A stretch of 64,000 nucleotides of DNA from Centroberyx gerrardi (taxonomy: Eukaryota > Chordata > Actinopteri > Beryciformes > Berycidae), in the NCBI RefSeq assembly GCF_048128805.1, contig NC_136001.1, forward strand, positions 5,287,001 to 5,351,000, read 5' to 3'. The notes under the pieces were generated by a model that saw only the letters and a list, made by a program, of their open reading frames with translations, made no database searches and was not told the origin of the DNA. Below, piece after piece: positions 951 through 57,540 of this stretch. Position numbers and translations under genes: made by a program. Within the stretch, counting starts at the first letter, position 1. Every line of letters begins with the position of its first letter.

Positions 951-1472
951 GATATCGGTGTGCCTCTGATATGATGCAGTTTGTTTGATTACTACGGAAA
1001 CCAGGAGTGGCTGTGGTTGCTCATATTTTTTTTTTTTATTCCCATCATCTCAAGATCTCGATTTAATAATCTTATTTTGAGATAACAAACTAATGGTTTG
1101 TGTGTGTTTAACAGCTTTTGTGCTATTGCTGTTGCCTTCATTAGAGGCAAGCCCTAGTAAGCCTGATAGTGTAGCCAAAATGTAGACGGACTAAAGTGGA
1201 ACTGACAGTGTGAGAGATCATGACTGGTCAATGCAATAGATTAATCGTCAATAGTAGTCAAGGTATGACACTGGCAGAAATTGCAACTACAATCAGGCAA
1301 TCAATGAAGTCGTGGTCTCAGGAATAAAATCAAAAAATAGCAATTGATCAATACTACACTGGATGTCTATGGGAAGCCCTTAACCTGAACTGATTGTAAT
1401 CCAGGAGAAACACTTCTGCCGGAAACAGAGCAGATTGGCTGAATTTTGGTCCAAAATTCAACCAATCACCTA

Positions 1473-1974
1473 AAGGTGCTCTGATCAGGATTTTTGGGGC
1501 CGATCACTGGAAGCAGTATCGGCCGATGCCGATCACGGGGTCTATCGTGTAGCTTTATTTATTTATTTAACTATTCTTAACAACATTATATATTAAGTAT
1601 TAAAACTAAGAGATGAGAAAGTATCATGAATTGACAACTGTTTATTGGCAGGCAACATGTGCAACATATTCCACTCTCTCTCTTAGAGACACAACTTAAA
1701 CCATAGCAGCCTACGCTTGGTTATTGGGAGCAGCTTAGAGCTTAACAAATATAGCTTTCCTGTGGAATAAAATAAATACAATTTTATAAAATAAAAAGTA
1801 GAATAAAAGATAAATGTGCACAACACACCAAGTTAGAACAATAAATTATATATAGGCCTACTGAGGCAACAAAAATCAATTCCAACGTTTTCAGTCCACT
1901 CAGTGGATACTGACTAGCACCTACAGTAGCCTATATACAGCTAATCTGCTAGTCTCGGAAACCCAGCTGTATCC
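1473..1974. mobile_element. Truncated hAT element, inverted relative to the copy at 13301-14384
   Basis: Sequence starting GGTGCTCTGATCAGG and running through ATATAGGCCTACTGAGG is the reverse complement of the right-hand 660 bases of the complete element at 13301-14384. It ends where that copy reads ACAGCTGGGTTTCC. One end is missing, so it is a truncated copy. Confidence 0.8.
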
Positions 1975-2058
1975 CCATTTAAAGCAAGGCTCCTCTGTAC
2001 CTCAGGTTTAGATCTCTGTTGATGTGATCTTTTTTTTTGTGTGTTTTGGTCAATCCAG

Positions 2059-4368
2059 GAAAATACCTCAAGCCACAGACCTTCAATCTCCGAGTCCCTC
2101 AGCCAAGACCATCACCTCCTCCTCTCCTTCCTCCATAGCCGCCGCCTCCTCCTCTTCATTGCATTCTAAGGTCCGCACAGGAAGTCACATCAGCTCCTCC
2201 CTCAAAACTTCATCCTCCTCCTCCTCCAGTCGCGGGCCAGGGAGACTGGCGGCGGCCGGCCAATCGGAGAACTCTGGGAGCAGCAGCGGTGGAGGTGGCG
2301 GCGTTCACCTGGTGTCTGCGGTGAAGCCAGCGGCGGTGCGTCAGGCGGGTCCCGGGCGACCCAAGAACCCGGTGGGGCGTCCCAGCAAGCAGATGCTGAA
2401 GCTGCGGGAGGAGGCCGCCGCCGCCGCCGCCCTCCGCAAGCGCAAAGCCCCGTCCCAGGAGGGGGAGCACTCGGGCCCCGACAGGAACTGCATCGTCCTC
2501 CAGGACCGGGGCCGCCCGCCCTCTGCCTCCTCCTCCTCTAAGGCCGCTGCCCCCTCCCCCCTCCCCCACGGACAGACCAACGGCACGCTCTCCCCCGGGA
2601 GCAAGCCCCGCCCCCAGCCCTCTCCCTCGGAGTCCCATTCGCCAGCCGCCACGGCGGTCTGGACCTACAGACGGACACACCCTCCTCCTCCTCTGGGCCA
2701 CTCGTCGCCCCCCGACCCTTCCTCCACCGCCACTAACTCCCACGGCCGGGGGGTCGGGGGGGACTCAGGACTGCAAGGGCGGGGCAGTGGGAGGGGCTTC
2801 GAGCACCGGGGGCTGGTGAAGAAACGCAAGGGGGGAAACAACGGGGAGCACTCGCCCCCCTCCAAGCCCTCGGCGCACCGTCTCCCCCCCTCCTCCTCCT
2901 CCTCTTCCTCGTCCTCTTCCTCCTCTCCACGCTCTAACTTCTACCCCTGGAAGGACAGTAAAGGCGGGGCGCTGGCCGGGGGGGTGGAGAAGAAACTGGG
3001 CACACAGAAGGTGAGTCTGGGGAAGGAGAGGAAACAGCGGTGCGAGATTCAGCTGCAAAGTCAGTGACGGATAGGAAAGAACAATTTGGTTATTAAAGCT
3101 ACAGTATGCAACTTTTCTTCTTGAGACAGGAAGTGTATCGTTAGTCCCGCCCTCTTCCCCCTCAGTTGGTCAAGTTCCCACCCCAACACTGTCAGTCATC
3201 TTCAGCCATCTACTTCGAAACAGCATCTAGCCTGAGGCTGAGGCAAACGTAAAGCCTCCACAGGTACTGAAAGGTACGAGTCTACATTCGGCAGATGGCG
3301 AATGCAGCCAATCTGCAATAAAAAACAACAACATTGATGTTAACCATATTTTTGAACGTTTAGCTTCGCTGTTCTTTGTTTTCTTACTGCTTTCCTCCAT
3401 TGCTGTTGCTATGAGTTCCCGCCTCACCTTGATTGCCACAACCAGCTCACCACTGGTCATGCCCACAGCAAATGGTCTACACCCCAAAGCCATCATTGAA
3501 AAGCCAATTTCAACACACAGGGGCACAGATGGACTGAAATTGTAGAATATATCCTGTTTATTTAATGTTATTTTAATGTGAAAAAGGTTGCATATTGTAG
3601 GTTTAATATTACTGGATGTGTAGAAAGTCTGGAATCGCATGGATATGTCAACATGACCACCACCAACTAACAGACACCAGTGCAAACAGAAAACCATGTT
3701 TCTTTGTATCCTACAAAGCATATACTGCACTAATACTACAGTAAAACTACACTAGTACCACACTACTATTACTGCACTACTGCTGCAGTGAAACTATAGT
3801 ACTACTGCACTACTTCTAATACACTACTACTGCACTAATTCAATGGCACTACTACAGTAAAACTACACAACTGTACTACCACTACAGTACAAATGGCATA
3901 CCATGTGTCCTTGTATCCAACAAAGCATATCCAGATTGACAGCTGTACTACTACAGTACAATGACTACACCGCTACTAGTACTTTCACTACTGTACAAGC
4001 AGAAAACCATGTTTCTTTGTATGAGACAAAGCATATTCGGATTAACATTATTGTACAGACATCAGTAAATCTCCGCTGCAGATGCTGCTGCTGATTTGGG
4101 ATTTTCACAGAATAAACATATTTCTTCAGGATGCCTCAGAACGCAAAATCGAGAGGATGCACTCCTGGGATCTGGGAGCCCAACTTCTTCCTATCCGTCA
4201 GTTAGGAAATGCGTGATCCAGCCATCTGATTCCAGACTTTTCTGACGCCCTATTAAAAGTTTTATTTATTTCACAATTTTGAAGTGATTATACAAACCCG
4301 TTGGTAAGATTAAAGTGAAATCTCAAATTCTTCTCTCTCTTCTCCTGCAGCCAAAACTGCACCATTAA
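2059..4368 (+). CDS. atxn7l2: 3' end of probable ataxin-7-like protein 2 (two last exons)
   Basis: A 952-bp exon (2059-3010) follows a CAG acceptor and ends in AAG|gtgagt. It joins in frame to a tiny last exon at 4351, after a good polypyrimidine tract, which reads PKLHH and stops at 4366-4368. The protein part is low complexity: long Ser runs, an AT-hook-like stretch with GRPKNPVGRPSK near its middle, a KRK-rich basic patch, and a second Ser run before NFYPWKDSKGG. Ataxin-7 family proteins (SAGA deubiquitinase module) have such Ser/Pro/basic C-terminal halves. The diagnostic SCA7 domain would lie upstream of this window. The name rests on composition and on the neighbour cyb561d1, since ATXN7L2 and CYB561D1 are adjacent in mammals. 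The call of a coding, spliced gene end is firm; the family name is moderately sure. Confidence 0.6.
3093..3605. mobile_element. MITE with AT-rich terminal inverted repeats
   Basis: The left end TTAAAGCTACAGTATGCAAC and the right end (reverse complement TTAAACCTACAATATGCAAC) are inverted repeats about 510 bp apart. No coding capacity. It sits in the last intron of the atxn7l2-like gene. Confidence 0.75.
3700..4050. repeat. Degenerate tandem array of ACTAC/TACAGTA units
   Basis: The interval repeats short motifs such as ACTACTGCACTA, CTACAGTA and the longer unit CATGTTTCTTTGTAT with drift between copies. It is a decayed tandem repeat in the intron before the last exon of the atxn7l2-like gene. 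Confidence 0.65.
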
Positions 4369-4737
4369 GTGTGCCTGCCTTACAAGCCACTATGAGGGAG
4401 CCAGCTCTGCTCAGTCTGGGACTGTGGCAACAGGACTCAACAAATGTGTTCTGTGTGTTTGTGTGTGTGCGCGTGTGTATGAGAGAGAGTGTGTGTCAGG
4501 TTGTGTTTGTATGTGCACAACTCGTACAGTATGGATTTGGCTGATCGGTGTTCAGTGTCTGAATCAGACCTAGGTGTGTGTGTGGATCTGTGAGTTTGCT
4601 GTTGTCTGGATGAATGTCTGAGGGAGAAACAGGGGGGCGGGCGGGGGGTGAGTTTCAGTGTATGGATTTAGAAATACCTCAAGACCATCCGGTTATGCTG
4701 CTAAATGAAATATGTTGGTTTATAAAAATGGATTAAA
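4369..4737 (+). other. 3' UTR of the atxn7l2-like gene with possible poly(A) signal
   Basis: No reading frame continues past the TAA at 4366-4368. The stretch holds GT-rich runs (about 4440-4500) and an ATTAAA hexamer at 4732-4737 that could direct polyadenylation. Inference only; no cleavage site can be seen. Confidence 0.35.
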
Positions 4738-6639
4738 AATGTCTTTACACTTGGATGCTGTGACTTGTTCTTCAAGGTATTCAATAGGTTTTAGCGTATT
4801 TGTATTTCATTGAAGATCATTAGTTGAATTCCTATTATTGCTGTGATAGTATTGAACTTTAGGTTGTTGTTGCTTATATCAGATTCATTGATTCATATCG
4901 TGAATTAAAATTAATTTTCAACAGTAGTATAATATGGTGGCTAAAAATCTGGGATCGCTTACATCCCAAAATATTTTTTATTTTTTTTGCTAAAACCTGG
5001 TTATGGTGTCTGAATGAACTGGTTGCCAGGCCGTTCAGTACAGGTGAGTAACAAAAACGGCACTTTGTTCTTAACACCAGCTACCACAATAAAGGGGGGG
5101 AAATACTTACACGGGCCGGGTTTAAGATGGTAAATGGCCTAACTACCTGAGTCAGTACAGGTGTGACAGTGTTGTGTAGTCTGTTGGAAAGTGATGGATT
5201 AACATATCTACATAATGCTATTTAGTGATTCAGAAAATGGCAACGTTTGGCGATAACCGCTAACCTGCGCGCTTGGCCGGTTCTTAGAGCGCCGCTAATG
5301 TCTGATCAAAGAGTATGAGTTTTACAAGATAGTTATGATGCCATGGAAGTTCCGAGTGGATGCAGGTTTTCATTCCAAGCAGAGACCAGATGATTTTACT
5401 GATTAACACAAGTCACCATTCAGAAACAGCACAGAAACTGTCTATTCTCAGTATTTATGACCAAGACCTGTGGACCGCCAATATGGTTTCCAGCCTTTAA
5501 AACTACAACATTAGCTAGCCATATAGCTACCAAATGCCTACAACTGCTATTTGTTGCAACTCCCTCATGAAAATACCTCTCAACGCTATCGGTAGCTTAC
5601 CAAATGACCTTAATGTTACGCTGTGTCGCTAACTCAAATAAAGCTCTCGCAGAAAAGAACATCCGTTCTAGTCCATTTGGAAGGGTATACGCGAGGACGA
5701 AACAGGAAGCAGAAAGGAAAGCTCTCGCTTCGCCTGCTGTACTCTCCGGTGTTACACGAGCTCCAATCCAGGAAGTGAATACAAAGCCCCGAGGAGGTTC
5801 GATCAGCAACTGATCTACAGCAAGCTGGAATGCACTAGTCTCTACCAGTTACATAATATGGACGACCACCTTATCAAGCGGCTGGAAGTTTGATTTACAG
5901 AAGTCAAGGAAGGGGAACGTTTGGTTCGCTGATCTGGGAACTGCATGGGAATTTACAAATAGTGATTCTCCAGGGGAAGAATCTTTCCTAAAGCGTCTCT
6001 GGTAGTGATTTAACCCGGAGAGACTGCACAGACTAGATGTGTTACTCCATCTGACAGCTCGGCCAATACGTTTTTTGTTGTTGTTTGTATTAAAACCTAT
6101 TTGAGCTACATTTGGCTCGGAATGGATTGCATCACCTGCTGTATTTGAGCGACGTCAAGCTCGCCAAAAATAGGACCGGGAGTGTATCGATATTTTATTC
6201 AAAATAAAAGCGTTTGGGGGACAAAAAGTATAACGAAAATTGTTATGCCGTGAAAAGGATATTCTGGAAAAAGCGTGTATTCTCATTTTTACAGATGCCC
6301 CAGTTAAATATATTCTGTATTTTCAAAATTCTACTATCACAGTGAGGTATGAGATTTTCTTTTCTTCAGACTCGAAGCATTTTGGAGGGAAAAAGTATGT
6401 GAACAGAACAACAAAATACAGTGAAAACGACATTTTGGGACAACAAAAACAACTGTGTTTTCATATGTCTCCTTAAATATATTCTCCAATTTCATTTTAT
6501 TCGGCTACATTAATATAACATAAATAATCGTAACAACGAGAACGTGTTACCTTGATGGGGATTTTATTTTAATCGTTTTCTACCGGACGTCGTATTATTT
6601 TTCATTCTGGCTAGCTTGACACTGCTCTTTATTATTGAA
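4738..6639. other. Intergenic region without a supported gene
   Basis: AT-rich spacer between the atxn7l2-like gene and cyb561d1. The block at 5340-5412 (GCAGGTTTTCATTC region) recurs near 22290-22400 and is an interspersed repeat. Short open frames here have no recognisable product. Confidence 0.6.
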
Positions 6640-6799
6640 TCGCATCCCCACCTATCACCCCATTTCCCCCCGTCTTGCTGAATGATGGAGCTCATACAGT
6701 ATCCCGGCCCAGGGAGCTTCTCTCTCTGCTTTAGCGTTACGTTAACACCAGCCGGAGCCGGCGGCCTCCAGAGCAGGTAGCGGCCCGGAGGGGAGCGGC
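6640..6799 (+). promoter_or_regulatory. GC-rich 5' region of cyb561d1
   Basis: The base composition changes from AT-rich (5.2-6.6 kb) to GC-rich just before the cyb561d1 start, with several CpG and GGCCC blocks between 6700 and 6799. This fits a CpG-type promoter or 5' UTR. No TATA box at a fitting distance is evident. Inference from composition only. Confidence 0.35.
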
Positions 6800-9220
6800 A
6801 TGCGGGCGGACGTGGAGTACAGCCCGGTGGGAGAGGGGCTGGGGATGAGCGACTTCTGGCTCTACGTGTGGATGCGGAGGGTGGCGGTGATAGCGGCTCA
6901 TGTAACCGGCCTGGGTCTGACCCTCATCATCTCACTGCTGTCCCGACCTGGAACAAGTGAGTGGACACGCGCACACACACACATAATCACACAGCTTCCC
7001 GTTACTTTCACACTGTACCTTAATGAAAATACACCATAATAACTGTAACCATAATAATCACTATAATATTCCTACTGTCTGTGGTAGTCAGTAGTAATCT
7101 TGTTATCACACTTTATGGTATTTTCTATATCTCCTGTATACTACCACTATAATATTCCTATAGGGATTTACAGTGCATCTCCTATGGTATCACTATATTA
7201 TTGCTATAGTATTCCCATAGTGTTTATGTGGTGTTCTATAGTGAGTTTACGGTACTTGTATCTCCAATGGTATCCCTATAATATCCTAATATATTACTAT
7301 AGGGACTTAATATTTTGCTGTGCTATTTGTATAGTATCTTTCTAAAATGTATCACAGGATCACTGGTTGTTTCTCCTTAGGCGAGACACCAGGCTGTGTA
7401 TTATTTATGAGAGGTTTGGGTCATATTCTGATAGTCATTGTCAATACACTGGTCCCAGCTAATGGATTCTAAGATGCTTACTGCTGTTTCTTATTGTTTC
7501 AGGTCTGTTTTCCTGGCATCCAGTGTGTATGTCTGTTGCAGTAAGTAACTTTCTTTCTCACACACACACACACTTTTAGCAAATGCAATCATTATATATT
7601 GTAGGAACTTTGATCTTATTACAAAAATAAGCTGGATACCATCAAATACGTTGTATTTCAGCTATCCCACTTTTTTCACCTGCAACCTTCTCATTTGCTG
7701 GAACCTATCCCAGCATGCATTAGGCGAAAGGCATCACAGGGATAACACACAGACAAACACACTCACGCTCCCATTCACACACAGTTTAGAGTCTCCAGTT
7801 CACCTGACCTGCATGTCTTTGGACCGTCAGAGGAAACCCATGCAAACTCCACACAGAAAGGAAATTCTTCTTTCCATTGTGAATAATGGATAGGGGTGTT
7901 GGGGACAGGGAGGGGTAAAGGTAGCGACTGAGCTATTCTGTTACAAGCTGACCTAGAACACGCTAGGGAATGCAGCTTTCACACTAAAATGGCTGCTAGA
8001 TGCGTTAGATTATCCAGTAGCACTATGAGATATGGTTTTGCTGAAATGTGCACACATACAGTACACACAGTAGGGTTTTCTCAGGTTCAGTACATTTTGA
8101 TGCATCACCAGTATGTTCATAATAAGTTGGTTCATGACAAACCTGTCTTTCCCCCTGGTTTCCTTTGTGTTGCCAACTTTGACTGATATGACTGATAGTT
8201 ATCCTCCATCATAGTGCCGTATTCAAAGCACATACAAAAGAATGCTATTTATAGCTCGTTCCATGTTGTTAACTACCACACACACACACACACACACACA
8301 CTAGAGGGAGACTGATATATGGGGCTAATATTGTCCTTCCAGTCAGTGTCGTCCACCTCTGATATGATGGACTTTGATTACATATTTATGGTAGAATTGA
8401 TCAATACTACACTGGTTGTCTATGAGAAAACCTTAACTGATTCTAATGAGCGTTTTGATCATTTTGATCAGATTCCACACAACTATGCATGATTATTGTA
8501 ATTATCATCATCATCATCTTAGGTTTCAATGAAGAGTCTTAGTGTTCCATGATGGTCTAAAAGCTGTTTCAGATGCTTTTTTTTTTAATGACATTTGGGG
8601 GAAAATTTAAAGATATTGAATATTGGCAGAAACCAGGATGTGTCAAACCCTAAGACACACACACAATCTCTTCTGCCTTCCTCCATAATAATCAGGTCTT
8701 GTCCCTCCCCCTCCAGTACTGCCTGTGTATGACCGAAGGCATCCTCCTCTTCTCGGCCGAAGGATCCCCCTTCTGCTTCAAATCTCGCCAGGGTAAAGTG
8801 CGTCTCCACTGGTTCTGCCAGGCTCTGGTCCTGGTAGCCGCGGCCACCGGGCTGGGCTTCATGGTGGCCAGCAAGAACGCCATGGAGCGCCCCCACCTGG
8901 TCAGCTGGCACAGCCTGCTGGGCGTCGGCACGGCGGCCGCCACCCTGCTCCAAGCGGCCTGCGGCGTCTGCCTGCTCTTCCCCAAGCTGCTGCGGGTGTC
9001 CTCCCCCCCCCGGCTGAAGCTGTACCACGCCACCTGCGGCCTGGTCACCTACCTGCTGGCCACGGTGACGGTGGTGTCGGCCATGTTCTCCGACTGGTTC
9101 CAGGCCACGGTGAAGGGGGCGGCGTGGTGGGCCTTCCTCCTGCTGCCCCTCTTCCCCGCCCTGGTGGTGATGAACCAGATTACTAATGCCTACCTGCCCC
9201 GCAAGAAGATCACCAGCTAG
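6800..9220 (+). CDS. cyb561d1: Cytochrome b561 domain-containing protein 1
   Basis: There are three exons, 6800-6956, 7503-7540 and 8717-9220, with matching phases (1, 0), giving 232 aa, close to the mammalian protein length. The family is a six-helix membrane protein that binds two b-type hemes and moves electrons from ascorbate across a membrane to ferric iron or other acceptors. Candidate heme-ligand histidines are visible in SWHP (exon 2), RLHW, SWHS and LYHATCG (exon 3). The end NQITNAYLPRKK is typical of the CYB561D1/D2 pair. LCMTEGILLFS, HLVSWHS and the LPRKK tail favour D1 over D2. The ATG at 6800 opens a hydrophilic N-terminus before helix 1. The coding part of exon 3 is strongly GC-rich, unlike its AT-rich surroundings. 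The gene runs tail to tail with zbtb40. Confidence 0.93.
8277..8302. repeat. (CA)n microsatellite in cyb561d1 intron 2
   Basis: About twelve CA units in a row. The sequence just after it (8305-8450) is a decayed copy of a repeat also seen at about 950-1400. Confidence 0.9.
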
Positions 9221-53874: not shown

Positions 53875-54485
53875 GTAAGTGTCAACCGGGGGTATACACA
53901 TACACTATGAAGCTAGCTAACTCAGTTAGCTAGATTGCTACTTCAATAGCACCCAGCTGCAGACCTGGAGAAGCCCCTGGCTAGGCAAGGCGAGGTTAAG
54001 GATAGGGGTTAGGGTGAGTGTGCTATACCAGGCCAGGGGCTTCTCCGGGGCTGCAGCTGGACGCTACTGTAACTGCTGATTTCTGGGGTTGCTTTTATTC
54101 TTTCCAATCTAGGGTGCAACTACGACTAGCAAAGCATGCGAGGCATGATGTTAAAATATATGGCCACTTACTAAACTAAAATCTTTGCTATCGCTTCTTG
54201 GAACTCAGATTATTAATAGATTATTAATTCTTTGGTGTTTTGCCCCTATAATGTTCATTTTCAAACATGTTTGGAATCGAGTTTTCAAGAATATGCCCAC
54301 CAGCACCAGCTCTAGCCAGATTCTTGACAGGGATTGAAAAGACAAAGATTCTTCTTCATCCATTGCCACTGCAAAATGGAACGAAACAAAGGAGGAGGCC
54401 AGACGGCACAGCAGCAATCTTCTGACTGAGACACTGGTGGGAGAGGAATAGCAAAGAGTGACCAAGTGAAAAAGGAACTCCACTT

Positions 54486-55918
54486 CTGCAACTACATTTG
54501 GAAACAGATTGTCATTTGAAATTGAAATTTTATAGCTTCTTCGTGATTGTAGACAAATTTTTCATTGCAATATACACCATGGCACTCCTCATGAAGGAGT
54601 ACGTCGAACCCGTACAGTACTGGAAGAATGGGTACAATGTCTTTGATGCTGTCGTCCTGGTTGGGTCCTTCCTGCCCATGTTATCCAGCACAGGAGTGTT
54701 TTATTCGGGACTGTCGCTGCGGGCGCCTGCTGAAAATACTCTCCTTCTTCCCAGGCCTCCAGGTCTGGATGGAAACTCTGATCAACACCATGAAGAAAGT
54801 GAGCTGTATCGCAGGCCTAATGTTTGTGCTCATGTTCATCTCCGCCCCCGACACTGGTGATCCTGAGCGATGGCGAAGCCTAGGCTCCGCCCTCCTGACA
54901 GTTTTCAGCTTGGTGACTTTTGACGGCTGGACAGAGACGCAGGAAGCCCTGGACGACCTGGGAATGGGCTGGAACCGAATTTTCACCATAGTCGTTATCC
55001 AGGGCCGGATTAACCAATAACAGGGCTCCTGGGCACACATGTTCTTTTGGGCCCCCCTCCTCCACCCACACATCGAAACTCAAGATACTAGCCTCTTCAC
55101 AATACAAACGTAAACGTTTTACAGGTTGAAAGTAATCTGAAACTCATTTTTAGCTATTACAAACTGCTATTCCTCTAGAACTGGATCATTCAATTTGAGA
55201 GTGATAACATTTGTCCAACAAGGCAAGCTTTAGTTTGAGGTGGTGGGGCTTCCCTTTGCTTACATTTGGATTGCAGATTGTAGCTTTAAAGAGGCGAGGT
55301 GACAGGTGGTGGGAATGAAGGACCAAAAAAATTGTTAAATGTTGTGATTTATTGAAAAGGATTGACTCTGTCTGTACCTAGGGACTCAGAATATTTTGGG
55401 GCCTCTGGTGGTCTGGGGCCCCGGGGCATGTGCCCTGCATGCCCGGTCGGTAATACAGGCATGTCGTTATCATTATTGGCCACCTCTTCATCTTCAGTAT
55501 CTTTACGGCCGTGGTCTGCAAAGAGATGATTTGTGCACACAAATGATGACAACAATTTGAAAACCAAGTAGGAGAAATCGCTGGCCCTGAAGATACAAGC
55601 CATCACCCAGAGGCTGAAGAAAGAAACCAGACCAATGCCAACCAAGCTGGTGGAGCAGTTTAAAAAGTCCCCTTTCTACGGAGGCAAAATGGTGACGGAA
55701 AATGCACGCACTAGCTTGGCCTTTGCCGATCTCTACCTCACCACCCTAAACCGTCAGGACTACACACTGAACAAGTTGAACTGCGTGAGCTGGTCGAAGA
55801 GAATCTGCTGAAGAAGCAAGAAAGGAGAGAAAGATGTGACGCGGTTCTGGGATCAGAAGAGGGAGGGAGAGGGTCTCACTGAAATAGACAACTATAGAGA
55901 AAAGCTGCAAAGAAAATA
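54486..55918 (+). pseudogene. catsper3: Decayed catsper3 (CatSper sperm calcium channel subunit)
   Basis: The region reads, in order, as the voltage-sensor and pore parts of CATSPER3: the S2/S3 part with EYVEPVQYWKNGYN (54537-54700), S4 with CGRLLKIL in another frame, S5, the pore TFDGWTETQEALD (54915-54955), S6, and the C-terminal part with KLVEQFKKSPF and LYLTTLNRQDYTLNKL (55570-55775). Breaks are plain: no ATG in register (the frame opens with TTG), a frame change between S3 and S4, about ten residues lacking between S5 and the pore, a 463-bp insertion in S6, in-frame stops after S6, and another frame change before ELRELVEENLLKK. No introns are apparent across these domains, so it may be a retrocopy or a decayed locus whose introns are short or lost. 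CatSper genes are known to be absent from many teleosts, which fits loss. Confidence 0.85.
55000..55462. mobile_element. DNA transposon inserted in catsper3 S6, 9-bp target duplication
   Basis: The 9-mer GTCGTTATC occurs at 54991-54999 and again at 55463-55471, on each side of this 463-bp block. Removing the block and one copy restores a continuous reading through the S6 helix (FTIVVIIIGHLFIFSIF). The ends are imperfect inverted repeats rich in GGGCC / GGCCC. No transposase frame is visible. A 9-bp duplication would fit Mutator-like or Merlin-like elements; the superfamily is not settled. Confidence 0.85.
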
Positions 55919-57540
55919 AACAAGTATTGATACTTGGATTTCTTGTTGACTTGTGTTCTGTTCAGCCAACTTCTCCATTTAGCACTGTCCTAAACAAATC
56001 TCACAGAATAATGTTTGCATGTACCTAAAGCTCTGGGGGAAATAATGAAATGAATGAATGAATGAAGCTTGAATCACATTTATAAAATTAGAAATTGATC
56101 ATATTGCCCTCTGGTAGTTGAGTTAAAAACTCAGCAAGAAAGGATTTGATCTCTGAGGGGAATTTGATAAAAAGTCATGGGCTATTACATGAGATTATAT
56201 TGCATAATAGTGGATGAAATGTGAGCCATTTCTATCTAAAAGGATTTTTGCTAGTGTGGCAATTTAGCCCAAACGAAGCAAAGGGGGTGAATACTTATGC
56301 AAAACAGATGTCTCTGTTATTTGAATTTTATGCTTCAAAATAAATTTCTACACATTTGTTTTCACTTTGATGGAACAGATTGCTTTGCATAGAACTCACA
56401 CACAAAAAATCCTGAATAAATGAATTTTGAAAATAACTTCATAGCACAAAAATACTTTTGTAAGGCACTGCATATTATGACGTCTGGTTAAAATGTATTT
56501 CAAACTTGAAACTTCAAAAGTCAAAACACCACTCTTGCTGTTTTATATACAAGATAGCCTACAAGGTAGGCCTACAGGAGTGTTAACTTTCCAGGCGGAC
56601 ATTGAGGATCCTTGAGGCAAAATTCCAATTAAGCTGTTTACATGGGTTGCTTATATAATTATTCCATTCATATTCCCATTTGCATGCTGCGGGCCATAGT
56701 CCGATTAACAGGAGAATCACTGGAGACACGGACAGTTTAAATGATATCCGTTTCTCTCAAACTCCTGAGCATGGTGACAGTTTCAGCCTCACCCCAGAAA
56801 TGTTGGGATTCTGTTTTTTCTGGCGTCAGCCATCTTTGTCCTCTGGAAACAAGTTCCAACCCTCTGGAAGGCAGAACGACTGTTGTCAAACAGTTGGACT
56901 GCCGCTTGTGTTGCATAATGCCATGAATCCTCCAATAAGAGTGATAGTTTGATTAAGGTGTATACATGTCTAAAATGCCCTTCAATAGGCATACCTTGCT
57001 TATATAGGGAGGAATTATGCATGCTGACTGGTTTAAGCAATGTGGATTTTAAATGTGGGTGATTCTTGACACTTGTTAATCCATATTTATTTAACCTTAA
57101 ATGTATTCATAGTGGTAATTACAGTAGGATATGCGGGAATTTTTGGTAGGCTCTGATATTTCCCATCTGACATTACAAATTGTGTGTGTCAACACAAGCA
57201 GTAAAAAAAAATAGCAAATCTGACGATGTTTGCAGTCCAAGATACTAAGTAAGAAATTCTAAGTTATATTCACACCAATACAATCAACAACACTCACAAA
57301 AAAAAGAGAAATGTCTGCTGTAGTGTTGTTTATGGTTGATTTTTAAATTCATAAATACAAATGATTTTGGATGTGCAAACACATAAAGAATGTTTTCAAA
57401 CCGAAGCAAGAAAAGCCTGTTCTTTCAATCAGTCAGATGGCAAAAACTAGGAATATAACTGGAATGATCCTTTAATATCTACACGTGTGGCAATTAATCC
57501 CAAACAGATGTATGACACTACATTGCATATTCCAACATAC
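55919..57540. other. Intergenic region, repeats only
   Basis: AT-rich sequence with a repeat relic near 56640-56960 and A runs near 57200-57310. Open frames are short and lack splice context. I see no supported gene. Confidence 0.5.

Follow-up and report, generated by a model that had tools for sequence, protein, structure and literature searches.

The window analyzed here, a stretch of 64,000 nucleotides from the fish Centroberyx gerrardi (contig NC_136001.1, positions 5,287,001 to 5,351,000), contains a broken copy of the sperm channel subunit gene catsper3 that is, in our judgment, quite likely a dead representative of an intronless catsper3 family that is dispersed over the genome, derives from a retrogene and evolves by birth and death in a fish that keeps CatSper genes. 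The initial annotation had taken this copy as the mark of a recent loss of catsper3, and with it of CatSper, in this lineage; that reading fell with the finding of 13 catsper3 places in the genome, of lesions shared between copies, of one copy with an open reading frame and of open exons of four other subunits. Because the relic is one of 13 places and other genes of the channel are present, it is not evidence of channel loss. The family provides a test case for how an obligate channel partner can move to a retrogene, and serves as a warning that a broken catsper3 in a fish need not mean that the channel has been lost.

CatSper is reported as lacking in Teleostei (Cai and Clapham 2008, PMC2572835), as present in Atlantic salmon sperm (Lissabet et al., cited in the review PMC8004680) and as present in three ray-finned fishes (Romero and Nishigaki 2019, PMC6660944), and herring and salmon are reported to have Slo3 (PMC5337896). 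Degenerate CatSper sequences are described as a CATSPER2 pseudogene in primates and as fragments in chicken, which resemble the fish relic in being degenerate CatSper copies in a vertebrate genome; the chicken fragments occupy ancestral syntenic positions and are interpreted as signs of loss, whereas the fish copies are many, are without introns and occur where other genes of the complex are kept (PMC2572835). A literature search, with most subscription papers beyond its reach, found no paper on a fish catsper3 retrogene.

The broken copy in the window

The order of domains and the signature residues of CATSPER3 that the initial annotation described are indeed readable from S2 to the C-terminal helix (54525-55873), in several frames (Table 1). 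The read-through of the relic had mouse CATSPER3 (PDB chain 7eeb_C) as its top match, at E 3.6e-40, with Cav3.2 as the best non-CatSper chain, at E 1.4e-13 (among the best 60 of 133 matches); in a further search of PDB the two values were 4.1e-52 and 3.9e-36. Both CATSPER3 chains stood on top in either search, which rules out another six-helix channel, the alternative named at the outset, as the source of the relic; chains of CATSPER1, 2 and 4 were not among the 60 matches listed in either search. The two longest open pieces matched Pfam Ion_trans above cut-off (28.8 and 32.9 bits; cut-off 25). S6 reads GHLFIFSIFTAVV (55478-55516), and LNRQDYTLNKLN closes the piece at 55536-55781. With mouse CATSPER3 (PDB 7eeb, chain C) the family has in common S2 to S6, the pore signature T-x-D/E-G-W and the cytoplasmic tail motif ahead of the C-terminal helix; it differs in that no introns were seen in the fish copies, the window copy is broken and the sequence is distant. 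The span first assigned to the relic, 54486..55918, had the right locus and strand and was slightly short at both ends of the homology, which takes in a start codon remnant at 54376 and the stop site at 55880 and extends over about 54215-56245.

Table 1. Features of the catsper3 relic, in window coordinates
Feature	Position	Strand	Remark
CATSPER3-like relic: homology to sister units	54215..56245	+	Takes in some 5' leader, what is left of the CDS and some 3' flank; ends approximate (all-against-all blastn, 10-kb loci)
Remnant start codon and N-terminal part	54376..54524	+	Start codon at 54376; 51-nt deletion near start, 2-nt frameshift, 59-nt deletion removing S1
S2-S3 coding remnant	54525..54722	+	YWKNGYN; end part holds 23-nt deletion common to the C5:5.63 Mb copy
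S4-S5-pore-S6 start remnant	54724..54999	+	Next frame; TFDGWTE (within VTFDGWTE); holds 27-nt deletion (28 nt in L026)
463-bp insertion	55000..55462	+	Transposon-like by eye; between 9-bp GTCGTTATC at 54991-54999 and 55463-55471
S6 coding remnant	55463..55543	+
Counterpart of the interval holding intron 5 in rodent Catsper3	55478..55592	+	Contiguous, without intron
Cytoplasmic C-terminal remnant	55536..55873	+	Two frames; in-frame TAG at 55569-55571; LNRQDYTLNKL
Site of the family's stop codon	55880..55882	+

The window copy is dead. Over the 314 codons that can be compared with the open copy on contig C15 (L021), six indels break its frame and three stops lie in frame, and it has lost S1, so that no intact six-helix frame is left; its deletions include ones of 51, 59, 23, 27, 24 and 28 nt, and together with the 463-bp insertion these lesions bear out the earlier description of a gene broken several times. 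The surviving codons, for which a dN/dS check had been proposed, agree: the changes private to this copy have a nonsynonymous to synonymous (N/S) rate ratio of 1.13, a value that suits dead sequence. Its nearest neighbor in a tree of 11 rows is the copy at C5:5.63 Mb (L026), which is 96.9% identical to it over 415 bp and ends at the pore; the two group at 97/95, and the C4 copy joins next at 95/97. The 23-nt and the 27/28-nt deletions fall at the same places in both copies and are the oldest nameable lesions of the window lineage; being shared, they predate the parting of the pair.

The site of the 463-bp insertion, in S6, is contiguous in six sister rows (L021, L023, L025, L027, L028 and L029). 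Within a few bases of it, the copy at C5:6.72 Mb (L024) is interrupted by an insertion of its own, about 7 kb long (1462-8467 on the reverse strand of that locus). The 463-bp sequence begins CAGGGCCGG and is, judged by eye, perhaps a non-autonomous hAT element; 9 bp are duplicated around it, where 8 bp are expected of hAT elements. Direct repeats around the window copy as a whole were sought, with no result.

Thirteen catsper3 places in one genome

We searched the window's own assembly (G000; 778.9 Mb in 278 contigs) with the relic protein and then with the longest open frame. The former gave 25 matches, which resolve into 13 CATSPER3 places: the window, four further places on C5 (at 5.63, 6.72, 30.39 and 31.58 Mb), a pair on C8 and single places on C1, C4, C14, C15, C16 and C21. 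The latter gave 34 matches at E values up to 10, of which the strong ones are the same 13 places and the remainder are short scraps (20-37 residues) and Cav-like sequences with E values no better than 0.0075. Of the 12 other places, 5 (L021, L022, L023, L025 and L028) span most of the coding sequence, the rest being partial; one partial place, of only 127 bp, is uninformative on introns. Most copies are broken, and their column consensus gives an open frame of about 415 codons, from ATG to stop, in which the alignment consensus slips frame twice, at the pore and ahead of the C-terminal helix. Between pairs of copies, dN/dS ranges from 0.19 to 2.26.

None of the catsper3 places long enough to judge has an intron, and an intron-bearing catsper3, the parent that a processed retrocopy would have, was not found in this assembly. 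A single intron position was examined directly, one known from rodents rather than fish: in the primer table of PMC4012946, intron 5 of Catsper3 measures 382 bp in mouse, the primers flanking it translate by hand to LASFIF and EEKQ.IL, and the corresponding interval is unbroken both in the window (Table 1) and in L021. The coding sequence of L024 is interrupted twice, in an insertion-like manner; the first interruption (about 7 kb) starts with a run of T and has no GT, and it is absent from the sister copy L027 (97% identity over 387 bp).

Other channel genes and a candidate working copy

The initial annotation had proposed looking for the other subunits in the same genome, and what was found there speaks against loss: open reading exons of CATSPERB, CATSPERG, CATSPER2 and CATSPER4, some exons of each gene being seen. 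The CATSPERB gene is on C5 at a distance of about 83 kb from the relic (region about 5426090-5433920; L034 and L035); CATSPERB is matched by its first part (E 5.7e-50), and Pfam CATSPERB_C by its C-terminal part (E 2.4e-50). CATSPERG exons on C3 gave three matches (best E 1.3e-11; two of the three above cut-off). On C17, a pore exon has CATSPER4 as its best match (E 2.7e-7), with adjoining S4-S5 and S6 exons recognized by eye, and on C9 one exon matches CATSPER2 at E 1e-10, with Nav1.5 next at 5e-7. CATSPER2-like sequence occurs also at C2:22.49, 22.90 and 22.95 Mb (L049-L051, L049 on the minus strand) with about equal scores (L050 at E 8.9e-13), and CATSPER2 thus seems to be multi-copy as well. 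Given these open exons, CatSper is probably still used in this fish. Eight Ion_trans places examined as further CatSper candidates were set aside, seven as cyclic-nucleotide-gated or voltage-gated potassium channels by eye and one (L039) as low-complexity frames.

At the CATSPERB locus, an exon of about 600 codons ends CAG/GTATGA and the next starts after TTGCAG, each boundary being in phase 0 by eye; the locus also has an exon of about 400 codons. In mammals CATSPERB is divided into many small exons, and with exons this large the fish gene also looks intron-poor.

Among the catsper3 copies, an intact reading frame is found in L021 (C15:23626213-23627400), which is open for 396 codons; its stop lies about 20 codons ahead of the family's stop, with a 9-nt insertion past that point. 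Its coding sequence has no frame break in 1135 sites and a single private indel, of 6 bp and in frame, as compared with 12 private indels in 974 flanking sites (1 observed versus 14.0 expected from the flanks; Fisher p 0.001); since seven copies were compared in this way after the data had been seen, we regard this shortage as suggestive. The same test gave no significant difference between coding sequence and flanks for L022, L023, L028, L024 and the window copy. L025 is also indel-poor (p 0.005) and yet has two stops and a frame break, and it therefore probably died lately. Substitutions in L021 are more frequent in the coding sequence (81/1135) than in the flanks (43/974; p 0.009). Its private N/S rate ratio of 1.20 is, taken alone, compatible with drift, and in a simulation with its 83 private changes the probability of staying free of stops by drift alone was 0.06. 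The pattern fits a protein that changes fast while its frame is kept, or else a very recent death of the gene, and we regard L021 as a candidate for a working, fast-evolving, intronless catsper3.

Leaving the window copy aside, all rows but one have private N/S rate ratios in the range 0.56 to 1.89. The truncated copy on C21 (L029) has 4 nonsynonymous and 14 synonymous private changes over 107 codons, compared with totals of 429 and 135 for a pool of the other rows (p 3.6e-6; the pool leaves out L032), a signal that consists of 18 changes of which the silent ones look GC-rich. The low proportion of nonsynonymous changes suggests that the source of L029 was probably under purifying selection; from the GC-rich look of the silent changes, GC-biased conversion or change may be responsible instead.

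Origin of the family and competing explanations

A retro-origin of the family is what we infer from one feature of its sequence, the missing introns. Like processed pseudogenes and retrogenes, the copies lack coding introns, are dispersed and mostly decayed, and include one that is open; unlike processed retrocopies, the fish unit has no poly-A tail that we saw and no clear target-site duplication, and it has non-coding flanks with an intron-like leader. Where both ends of the unit are mapped, at four loci, neither a poly-A tail nor a convincing target-site duplication was seen, the copies being old, and the 5' leader contains two donor-like and one acceptor-like splice sites (putative, by eye); together these features indicate that the copies are not simple processed mRNA.

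On the reading that we prefer, a retrogene-derived family undergoing birth and death, an intronless catsper3 would have arisen, in the simplest case from a spliced transcript that was reverse transcribed, and would have been functional for some time, as the open consensus and L029 suggest. It would then have come to lie in the at least 13 places where it is observed, several of which carry a unit of about 3.5 kb; most copies would have broken, as is seen, with the lesions common to the window and C5:5.63 Mb copies arising before that pair parted, and catsper3 would now be supplied either by the open C15 copy or by a source missing from the assembly. The parental catsper3 would in this case be lost, or it may simply be missing from the assembly. 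Only tentatively do we extend this reading to a full replacement, in which the intron-bearing catsper3 would have given way to an intronless, mobile, multi-copy family and the channel would run on one fast-evolving retrogene at C15:23.63 Mb while about a dozen sisters, the window copy included, die; an essential single-copy sperm channel subunit would then be undergoing birth and death.

It is conceivable, and to us somewhat improbable, that the working catsper3 is a conventional gene with introns which the assembly lacks (owing to a gap or a sex-specific region) and that the copies are its by-products: the truncated L029 has a signature of purifying selection and no intact source for it was found, as such a gene would explain, whereas no gene of this kind was met in a 778.9-Mb assembly in which CATSPER2, CATSPER4, CATSPERB and CATSPERG were all found.

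The form of the copies bears on a further explanation, an unlikely one in our estimate, namely that an intronless catsper3 was taken up by a mobile element of about 3.5 kb, which spread it as passenger copies, none of which works. The copies are alike well beyond the coding sequence, and several constitute a unit of about that length with non-coding sequence on both sides. This unit has a common 5' start (L021, L022, L023 and L025, with L024 and L028 starting close by) and a common 3' end (L021, L022, L028 and L029), and no similarity was found outside its ends at E 1e-8 (blastn, 10-kb loci), all of which speaks for such an element; no terminal inverted repeats were seen by eye and no clear target-site duplication was found, however, and the N:S counts of L029 and the indel shortage of L021 suggest that the protein is, or once was, under selection. 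Duplication of large blocks is rejected because the flanks outside the unit are dissimilar in the 10-kb loci.

That the window is the ancestral catsper3 locus and its relic a unitary pseudogene, left by a recent loss in this fish, would suit a sequence that is clearly CATSPER3 with its domains in readable order, and is rejected as highly improbable given the lack of introns, the 12 further places, the lesions shared with another copy and the presence of other CatSper genes. The neighbors of the relic in the window also carry DUSP, UCH, BTB and C2H2 domains (presumably USP48-like and ZBTB40-like genes), unlike the surroundings of human CATSPER3, which we take to be PITX1/PCBD2.

Two observations concern the surroundings of individual copies. 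At L021 on C15, repeated blastn matches show that a 42-bp segment of the catsper3 leader recurs in tandem roughly a dozen times at 3535-4075. Upstream of a C8 copy (L022, reverse strand, 220-924), an open frame resembles, by eye, a fragment of a hAT or zinc-finger-MYM transposase.
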